Source: Hyphomicrobiales bacterium
Lineage (GTDB): Bacteria; Pseudomonadota; Alphaproteobacteria; Rhizobiales; Rhizobiaceae
NCBI GenBank assembly: GCA_021775415.1
Contig: JAJFHV010000012.1
Coordinates: 1-64,000 of the forward strand
Direction of reading: 5' to 3'
DNA: 64,000 nt
Below are positions 15,006-34,472 of the stretch, piece after piece (the first letter of the stretch is position 1; every line of letters starts with the position of its first letter). The position numbers and the translations under genes were made by a program. The notes beneath the pieces were generated by a model, which had not been told where the DNA came from, searched no databases, and saw only the letters and a program-made list of their open reading frames with translations.

Positions 15006-15031
15006 GAATAAAAGCGAGCCACCTCAGCCGC

Positions 15032-15172
15032 CAGACATTTGACGATCCCGGGAACCTACTAGGTAGGTGGGCGCCGTAATGACCAAGCCCACGAGCGAGA
15101 TCAGGGACAGCTCCCTTAAAGATCGATAAGGCCCCGGGGATAGTTAGTCTGTCGAACCAGGCAGCCCGCCAA
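15032..15172 (-). ncRNA. ssrS: 6S RNA
   Basis: The minus strand between zapA and the 5-FCL gene contains the alphaproteobacterial 6S RNA signature GGTCATTACGGCGCCCACCT, followed by a 3' arm GGTTCCCGGG that pairs with a 5' arm CCCGGGGCC, giving the long closing stem around a large central bubble. A TATATG lies about 12 bases upstream of the likely 5' end. 6S RNA binds the housekeeping RNA polymerase holoenzyme in stationary phase. The ends are approximate. A secreted hydrolase gene has been inserted on the opposite strand between zapA and the RNA. Confidence 0.85.
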
Positions 15173-33379: not shown

Positions 33380-33574
33380 ATGCACGAAGAAGAACAGCTC
33401 TCAAAACCGATGGCCACCTATGTAATCGGGCAGGATCTTTCGCTGCTGTCGGTGGATGAAATTGATGAGACAATCCAGGCGCTAAATGACGAGATCGAAC
33501 GTCTTCAAGAAGAGCGCAACAGCAAGGAAACTCATATTAGTGAGGCGGAGGCACTATTTTCCCGTAAACAGTGA
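33380..33574 (+). CDS. DUF1192 small protein
   Basis: A 64-residue protein with the DUF1192 pattern: a short acidic N-terminus, then LSLLSVDEIDETIQALNDEIERLQEERNSK as a coiled coil. GGGAGG precedes the ATG at 33380, giving the start within a longer open frame. The family is confined to alphaproteobacteria and has unknown function; its members usually sit beside rcdA or rpmE as here. Confidence 0.8.
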   Translation: MHEEEQLSKPMATYVIGQDLSLLSVDEIDETIQALNDEIERLQEERNSKETHISEAEALFSRKQ

Positions 33575-33581
33575 AAAAAAT

Positions 33582-33659
33582 ATGGTTAAAAAATCCTCGC
33601 ATTAACAATGACTTAAAGTGGTGCCGCAAAATTTCAGAGATCTGTTAACCCTCAGTTAA
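33582..33659 (+). promoter_or_regulatory. Cluster of CtrA-type binding boxes
   Basis: Three motifs fit the CtrA consensus. ATGGTTAA at 33582-33589 is the inverse of the rhizobial 8-mer TTAACCAT. TTAA-N7-TTAA occurs at 33602-33616 (spacer CAATGAC) and again at 33645-33659 (spacer CCCTCAG). Two full-length boxes with exact seven-base spacing within 60 bases are unlikely by chance. The second is placed to overlap the -35 region of a transcript beginning near 33680. Confidence 0.7.
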
Positions 33660-33679
33660 GGTTTATCGGGGATTAATGG

Positions 33680-33778
33680 CGTATCCAGACTTTCTGGATT
33701 CATTCCGGGTGGCTTACGTCACTCTGTTTGACGCCTCCCTGTTAACTCTTCAGAGCCGCTTATGCGGCTCTTTTTTTG
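33680..33778 (+). ncRNA. Candidate small RNA or leader RNA under CtrA boxes
   Basis: About 95 bases that fold as a series of hairpins: ATCCAG-ACTTT-CTGGAT at 33683-33699, then CGTCA/TGACG with an outer GGC/GCC, then an unpaired CTCCCTG stretch, then the terminator AGAGCCGC-TTAT-GCGGCTCT with T7. The unpaired CTCCCT resembles the anti-Shine-Dalgarno loops of alphaproteobacterial small RNAs. A GGATTAAT just before the segment could be the -10. It may be an independent RNA or the attenuated leader of rcdA. Ends are approximate. Confidence 0.5.
33752..33778 (+). terminator. Strong intrinsic terminator
   Basis: AGAGCCGC (33752-33759) and GCGGCTCT (33764-33771) form a perfect eight-pair stem with loop TTAT, followed by a run of T to 33777. 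It lies about 180 bases upstream of rcdA, downstream of the CtrA boxes. Confidence 0.9.
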
Positions 33779-33959
33779 CAACTCTTTGCTTTTACTATTA
33801 TATTTTCAGCAATTGGCAGGCGGTATTGCCACTCTCAATTTCCAGCCAACACACCTCGATAACCGTTAACCTTCATCGACCCCACGGCTTTACCAAAACC
33901 CTTTTCTGCATTAGGTTTTACCACTCAATTAGATGGTCTCTTTAATGAGGAAGCAGGAA

Positions 33960-34472
33960 TTGACGAACACCGTAAATCTGGCGGAGCGGTTTGCCTTATC
34001 CGAAAAATTCAAGAAGTTGTTCCAGGATGGTATGGGGCTTGTGGAGGAGTGTGCCACCTATCTTGATGGCGATGGTCGCAAGGCGGCCAAGGGATTGCCG
34101 AGAAACTCCGCAATGCTTTATGGCTCGGAATCGATGCGCCTCACTACCAGGCTGATGCAAATTGCCTCCTGGCTGCTTCTCCAACGTGCTGCAAACGAAG
34201 GCGAGATGACCCGCGACCAGTTGCTTGAAGAAAAGAAGAAAATCAAGCTGGAAGCACCCAACAATCCTATGGACAATCCTGCCTGGGAGGAATTACCACC
34301 CCAGTTTCTGGATCTGGTGTCCCGCTCGATTGCCCTGCAAAACCGGGTCATGAACCTGGATGCGGAATTGTATGGCCACAAGCCGGAAATCAGGGAAGAT
34401 ACGGGAAACCCGGTTAGTCAGCAGATTGATCTACTCTCAACCGCATTCGGTGCTACCAAACAAAGCAATTGA
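33960..34472 (+). CDS. rcdA: RcdA-like regulator of CtrA degradation (DUF1465)
   Basis: A DUF1465 family protein; the core FKKLFQDGMGLVEECATYLDGDGRKAAKGLPR followed by SESMRLTTRLMQIASWLL is diagnostic. In Caulobacter RcdA is an adaptor that helps ClpXP degrade CtrA. The open frame begins at ATG 33933 (also ATG 33945), but neither has a ribosome site; TTG 33960 has AGGAAGCAGGA right before it and gives MTNTVNLAERF as in homologues, so it was chosen (170 residues). CtrA boxes and a terminator lie upstream. Confidence 0.85.
   Translation: MTNTVNLAERFALSEKFKKLFQDGMGLVEECATYLDGDGRKAAKGLPRNSAMLYGSESMRLTTRLMQIASWLLLQRAANEGEMTRDQLLEEKKKIKLEAPNNPMDNPAWEELPPQFLDLVSRSIALQNRVMNLDAELYGHKPEIREDTGNPVSQQIDLLSTAFGATKQSN

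Follow-up and report, generated by a model that had tools for sequence, protein, structure and literature searches.

CtrA is a central cell-cycle regulator of the alphaproteobacteria. The locus examined here raises the question of what is driven by the CtrA-type boxes that lie between a DUF1192 gene and rcdA: a small RNA in its own right, or a leader of rcdA that is attenuated by the terminator in front of that gene. We addressed this in the window, by which we mean the whole stretch of 64,000 nucleotides that was analyzed, and by comparison with related loci. The elements of the locus are as follows, in window coordinates.

33380..33574, + strand: DUF1192 gene, the upstream neighbor (PF06698, 57.8 bits)
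33582..33589, - strand: inverse TTAACCAT, which reads ATGGTTAA (direct reading; not conserved)
33602..33616, no strand: box 1, exact TTAA-N7-TTAA, TTAACAATGACTTAA (direct reading; in this genome only)
33645..33659, no strand: box 2, conserved CtrA-type box, TTAACCCTCAGTTAA (direct reading; exact TTAA-N7-TTAA)
33672..33677, + strand: -10-like hexamer ATTAAT, the best TATAAT-like hexamer
33683..33778, + strand: predicted sRNA of ~95 nt, RF02356 member, its 5' end placed by promoter spacing
33683..33699, + strand: hairpin 1 (AUCCAGA-CUU-UCUGGAU), from covariation
33707..33724, + strand: consensus hairpin 2 (here GGGUGG / UCACUC; consensus GAGUGG / CCACUC), from covariation
33725..33748, + strand: linker, containing GACGCCUCCCUGUU (33730-33743), the likely pairing seed
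33752..33778, + strand: intrinsic terminator, AGAGCCGCTTATGCGGCTCT plus a T run, with an 8-pair stem and a 4-base loop
33866..33871, + strand: TTAACC half-site between terminator and rcdA, at the position of the relatives' second box
33960..34472, + strand: rcdA (DUF1465; PF07323, 187.5 bits for the frame 33948-34472)

A previous sequence-only reading of this DNA had described two exact TTAA-N7-TTAA boxes, the inverse TTAACCAT, serial hairpins, a CTCCCT motif and a terminator, and direct reading found each of them where it had been placed. The linker reads GACGCCTCCCTGTT at 33730-33743. The start of rcdA is likely the TTG at 33960, given the GAGGAAG ahead of it. The DUF1192 gene was found 5' of the RNA in 73 of the 128 loci tested. 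Farther upstream and divergent from it, near the sRNA and rcdA, lies the gene for TrcR, a transcriptional cell-cycle regulator (PF06242, 32324-33169, - strand). The window also carries a 6S RNA (RF00013) at 15012-15170 on the - strand (73.4 bits).

The small RNA gene that had been proposed from sequence was borne out by a match to Rfam family RF02356 (BjrC1505, an alphaproteobacterial sRNA), which scored 63.6 bits against a cut-off of 50 and covered model positions 1-140, the full length. On sequence grounds, the membership of the window RNA in this family is firm. The match spans 33655-33777 and reaches into box 2 and the promoter; since the Rfam model begins 5' of where we place the start, the RNA may in reality begin earlier. 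At E<=0.001, RF02356 was present in 12/12 genomes of the genus (4 above the Rfam cut-off), in 96/121 genomes of the family (67 above) and in 245/297 genomes of the order (212 above). A class-wide draw of 240 genomes contained it in 25 (12 above cut-off), 2 of which belong to the same order, and no match was found in the 14 control genomes, Caulobacter vibrioides among them. Work by Madhugiri in 2012 reportedly found a BjrC1505-family sRNA to be expressed in Bradyrhizobium. The name BjrC1505 was met in one paper only in the literature searched, within a table of predictions, and no text tying BjrC1505 or its locus to CtrA or rcdA was found in that literature, which lay mostly outside subscription papers.

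The family as modeled appears narrower than the RNA itself, in that RNAs whose linker instead reads UUUUCUCCCUGUUUUACC receive low scores from the model or escape it. Variants with a different hairpin 2 and the linker GGTCTGATTTTTCTCCCTGTTTTACCTTGAGAGCCGC were seen at L161, L165, L172-L175 and other loci, where RF02356 misses them or gives low scores; their terminator precedes rcdA, and most of those listed have an exact box. A broader Rfam model for these variant RNAs seems warranted. Two other known RNAs resemble the window RNA. The suhB/mmgR family (RF00519) shares with it a CCUCCCU followed by a terminator, but the match reached only 20.9 bits against a gathering score of 41, so the window RNA is not a member. 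EcpR1 of Sinorhizobium meliloti is likewise a conserved Rhizobiales sRNA and is tied to cell-cycle control; unlike the window RNA, it is described as lying 3' of divK-pleD, with the loop UCCGCCGCAUCU and a stringent-response regulon (the available parts of PMC4414408). Its location at divK-pleD and its different loop ruled it out as the family of the window RNA. We also considered whether the open frame 33676-33945 encodes a small protein and rejected this as improbable, given an ATG located 5' of the start predicted for the RNA and the RNA-like covariation of the hairpins.

For comparison, we assembled 181 loci: 10 from the same genus, 49 and a further 20 from the same family by RNA match, 70 from further families within the order, 16 from the class-wide draw and 16 located through rcdA. 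The order-level loci are a selection from among the better-scoring matches listed. The 70 other-family loci represent 30 families of the order, with 10 each from two of them (f35 and f41) and mostly 1-3 from the rest. The loci found through rcdA are the 16 of 27 rcdA loci with a CTCCCT no more than 600 bases 5' of rcdA (two, in G187 and G281, are also weak RF02356 matches); the other 11 had no CTCCCT motif within 600 bases, 7 of them in genomes of at most 2.0 Mb, and an rcdA match was absent in 8 of the 35 genomes of this search. The class loci L201 and L208 were left out for want of a linker, and anchors were placed manually or under a special rule at L029, L082, L086, L087, L098, L143, L144, L160, L166, L195, L196 and L199.

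Covariation supports a conserved folded structure of the RNA across these loci. In the window, the fold of 33683-33778 reaches -34.9 kcal/mol (z -5.6), which was equaled by none of 200 shuffles, and the terminator at 33752-33778 was the sole one in a scan of 33550-33980, where 0.4 were expected. Covariation was counted in 105 nonredundant sequences of the 181 against 500 shuffles, which ignore relatedness. Hairpin 1 had 49 double changes (shuffle mean 12.4, maximum 23), hairpin 2 had 67 (mean 22.1, maximum 36) and the terminator had 19 (mean 3.2, maximum 9). Stems slid by 1-2 bases paired at 13-62%, compared to 80-96% in the true register. A third hairpin of the consensus fold, which would close the linker, was rejected, since it had just 1 double change where shuffles gave 4.7. 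The linker itself showed no covariation and little variation; CTCCCTGT was present in 176/181 loci, partly by construction, since most loci were anchored on CTCCC. The CTCCCT motif had been described as unpaired, and that part did not hold for the window RNA in isolation: its minimum-energy fold forms hairpin 1 and the terminator and lacks hairpin 2, the GGG of which pairs with the linker and partly takes up CTCCCT.

What distinguishes the boxes is how near they are to each other rather than their number. The window contains two exact TTAA-N7-TTAA boxes, both at this locus, compared to a shuffle mean of 0.66; this count alone is a weak signal, given that 17 of 100 window shuffles had two or more. 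Their closeness is the unusual feature: they lie 43 bases apart, and the 26 exact boxes of the 3.46-Mb genome would be expected to give 0.011 pairs within 60 bases. The genome has one other close pair of exact boxes, located between open frames on contig C23 (3676-3717, L214). Among the 181 loci, an exact box was found 150..50 bases 5' of the linker in 104 (including L168, where the stretch is too short for the full range), compared to about 1 in shuffled regions; the other half-site spacings from N3 to N12 each occurred in at most 7/181 loci. These 104 loci hold 105 exact boxes, 101 of which, from 101/181 loci, lie where box 2 does (-96..-83 of the linker); the count did not change with another search range. 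The remaining 4 are box 1 and three strays (L144, L160 and L183). By group, the exact box was present in 9/10 loci of the same genus, in 42/49 same-family loci, 12/20 weak matches and 8/13 rcdA-found loci of the family, in 25/70 loci and 2/3 rcdA-found loci of the other families, and in 6/16 loci outside the order. Among the loci found via rcdA and not by RNA similarity, 10/16 had it. With one mismatch allowed, 178/181 loci match, which is a weak figure since other spacings then also match often; L176, L179 and L181 had no box even so.

The sequence-only reading had treated both boxes and the inverse site as CtrA sites and had proposed that conservation be sought before rcdA in relatives. When this was done, box 2 and the hairpins proved to be kept, and box 2 appears to have an activator-like placing; box 1 and the inverse ATGGTTAA found no counterpart in the 181 loci. 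Box 1 is the sole exact box at offset -132, the nearest thing among the 9 other loci of the genus being a one-mismatch box at -128 in L079, and the inverse site occurs within -190..-110 of the linker at 1/181 loci, the window itself. Both appear so far to be private to the window genome.

If the RNA and rcdA formed one transcript, it would start at box 2, usually stop at the terminator and read through into rcdA under some condition. This attenuated-leader alternative, which the earlier reading had left standing beside the small RNA, draws on the linkage of the two: rcdA is the next gene, in the same direction, at 144/149 order-level loci found by RNA similarity (67/70 in other families, 47/49 and 20/20 in the family, 10/10 in the genus), and agrobacterial rcdA is described with several transcription start sites and possible CtrA sites rather far upstream (available parts of PMC10469942). 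We consider it very unlikely. The terminator covaries, and the single alternative pairing that the consensus fold offers shows no covariation. An exact rcdA-proximal box lies behind the terminator in 65/80 other same-family loci with rcdA (13 of the 80 found through rcdA), and outside the order, where 15 loci could be judged, rcdA is absent from 7. There, rcdA is next in 8/16 loci, one further locus (L206) being too short, so linkage to rcdA does not hold wherever the RNA occurs. Because of the intervening terminator, the box of rcdA's own and the outside-order loci without rcdA, we favor a free-standing sRNA. The rcdA-proximal site has its own distribution: between terminator and rcdA, loci of the same genus had an exact box in 2/10 and TTAACC in 10/10, those of other families had 1/70 and 30/70, and outside the family the sRNA box is kept more often than the rcdA-proximal one. 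The picture for much of the family is of two units in tandem, the sRNA and rcdA, which look separate and each have CtrA-type sites. The five next genes tested at rcdA-less loci outside the order were two for Cys/Met enzymes, two for thioesterases and one for a transporter. Outside the order, the RNA precedes a gene for a Cys/Met-metabolism PLP enzyme at L197 and L200 (Pfam) and at L207 (by eye), and a zinc-binding dehydrogenase gene stands on its other side at L197 (Pfam), L200 and L211 (by eye). This Cys/Met-enzyme/dehydrogenase setting may be an older neighborhood.

Whether the box is a CtrA site, and in which direction it would act, bears on two further alternatives. The sRNA could be real and another factor could read the conserved TTAA-N7-TTAA promoter element. 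CtrA binding here is predicted from sequence, many other-family loci have no exact box, and a [GC][CG]TTT past the box is common in the order (among loci whose box has no more than one mismatch, 104/159 in the order compared to 0/13 outside it), all of which would fit such a factor. Nevertheless, the 7-base spacing, the half-sites and the placing are those of a CtrA full site, the motif also precedes rcdA in much of the family, and CtrA ChIP-seq in S. meliloti marks the promoter region of rcdA (PMC4433202, in part), and we judge another reader of the element to be unlikely. Alternatively, CtrA could repress the sRNA from a true start farther upstream, with box 2 covering the start or the -10 element. 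The Rfam match does begin at 33655, before the predicted start, and box 1, 43 bases upstream, could serve an upstream start in the window genome. Against this, box 1 occurs at no other locus, and a -10-like hexamer stands 11-12 bases past the second TTAA of box 2 in 113/181 loci; repression seems to us quite improbable. A sigma-70 consensus scan found no promoter at the predicted place. In Caulobacter, the CtrA-activated promoter P2 of ctrA has a full site with its 5' base at -39, and full sites generally lie near the -35 region, a site at -14 accompanying repression (available parts of PMC4287350). Box 2 starts 38 bases 5' of hairpin 1, and by analogy it would be placed for activation if hairpin 1 is the start of transcription. 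CtrA control of the sRNA is a prediction that has good support from comparison.

We propose that the locus encodes a free-standing, CtrA-activated, trans-acting BjrC1505 sRNA of ~95 nt with an anti-Shine-Dalgarno mode of action, a reading that we regard as likely. Its family, the conserved structure, the terminator and the conserved box with its placing are observed, and we infer its transcription in this organism, CtrA binding, the direction of control and the mode. The RNA would start at ~33683 from its own promoter and end at the terminator at 33752-33778. Phosphorylated CtrA on box 2, over the -35 region, would activate it, and by analogy with Caulobacter its level would peak in predivisional cells. 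The CCUCCCUGUU linker could then pair with purine-rich ribosome-binding sites of the GGGAGG type and lower the translation of target mRNAs.

The target search neither named such mRNAs nor pointed to ctrA or gcrA. The complement of the linker's 14 bases, with up to 2 mismatches, was found about twice as often as a backwards-pattern control in 6 genomes (22 vs 14 in the window genome, where the sRNA gene accounts for one of the 22), an excess too weak to name targets. CcnA of Caulobacter crescentus is, like the window RNA, a putatively CtrA-activated noncoding RNA with a C-rich pairing loop; unlike it, CcnA is located at the replication origin and pairs with GGGG in the ctrA and gcrA leaders (available parts of PMC8959179). 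CcnA-like pairing was not seen in ctrA leaders (mean duplex energy -18.1 vs -18.9 shuffled, 29 genomes) or gcrA leaders (-19.1 vs -19.2, 30 genomes), with accessibility outside the model. The best ungapped match was 13.9 vs 16.2 shuffled for ctrA and 17.1 vs 16.3 for gcrA, where 11/30 cluster at +10, in the coding sequence, and GGAGG just 5' of the start was found in 0/29 ctrA and 0/30 gcrA genes. Given that these leaders show no pairing beyond that of shuffled sequence, a loop from the sRNA to CtrA degradation has gene neighborhood as its one basis.

CtrA-driven sRNAs as such are already known, given that CcnA and six Caulobacter noncoding RNAs with CtrA motifs have been described (PMC8959179 and PMC4287350, in the parts available). 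We found few descriptions of RNA targets of CtrA outside Caulobacter, and the widely conserved CtrA-type promoter of the BjrC1505 sRNA, as predicted from comparison, is newly recognized. In S. meliloti, CtrA motifs are reported upstream of rcdA (PMC3616915, in part), and ChIP-seq places CtrA on the promoter region of rcdA, where CtrA depletion had no visible effect on rcdA transcription (PMC4433202, in part). A CtrA-driven sRNA before rcdA may explain part of this peak without an rcdA response, although raw data would be needed to assign the published peak, because a second, rcdA-proximal box exists in much of the family. The conserved sRNA promoter thereby offers a testable reason for binding without an rcdA mRNA response, as a possibility, since rcdA often has that second box. 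More broadly, and with slightly less than even confidence, we suggest that BjrC1505 could be both a core and an ancient component of the CtrA regulon across the order and in some of its neighbors, a predivisional RNA arm apart from rcdA that would silence GGGAGG-type mRNAs, and that part of the rhizobial CtrA binding assigned to rcdA would drive it. The sRNA may thus represent an overlooked RNA arm of the CtrA switch.
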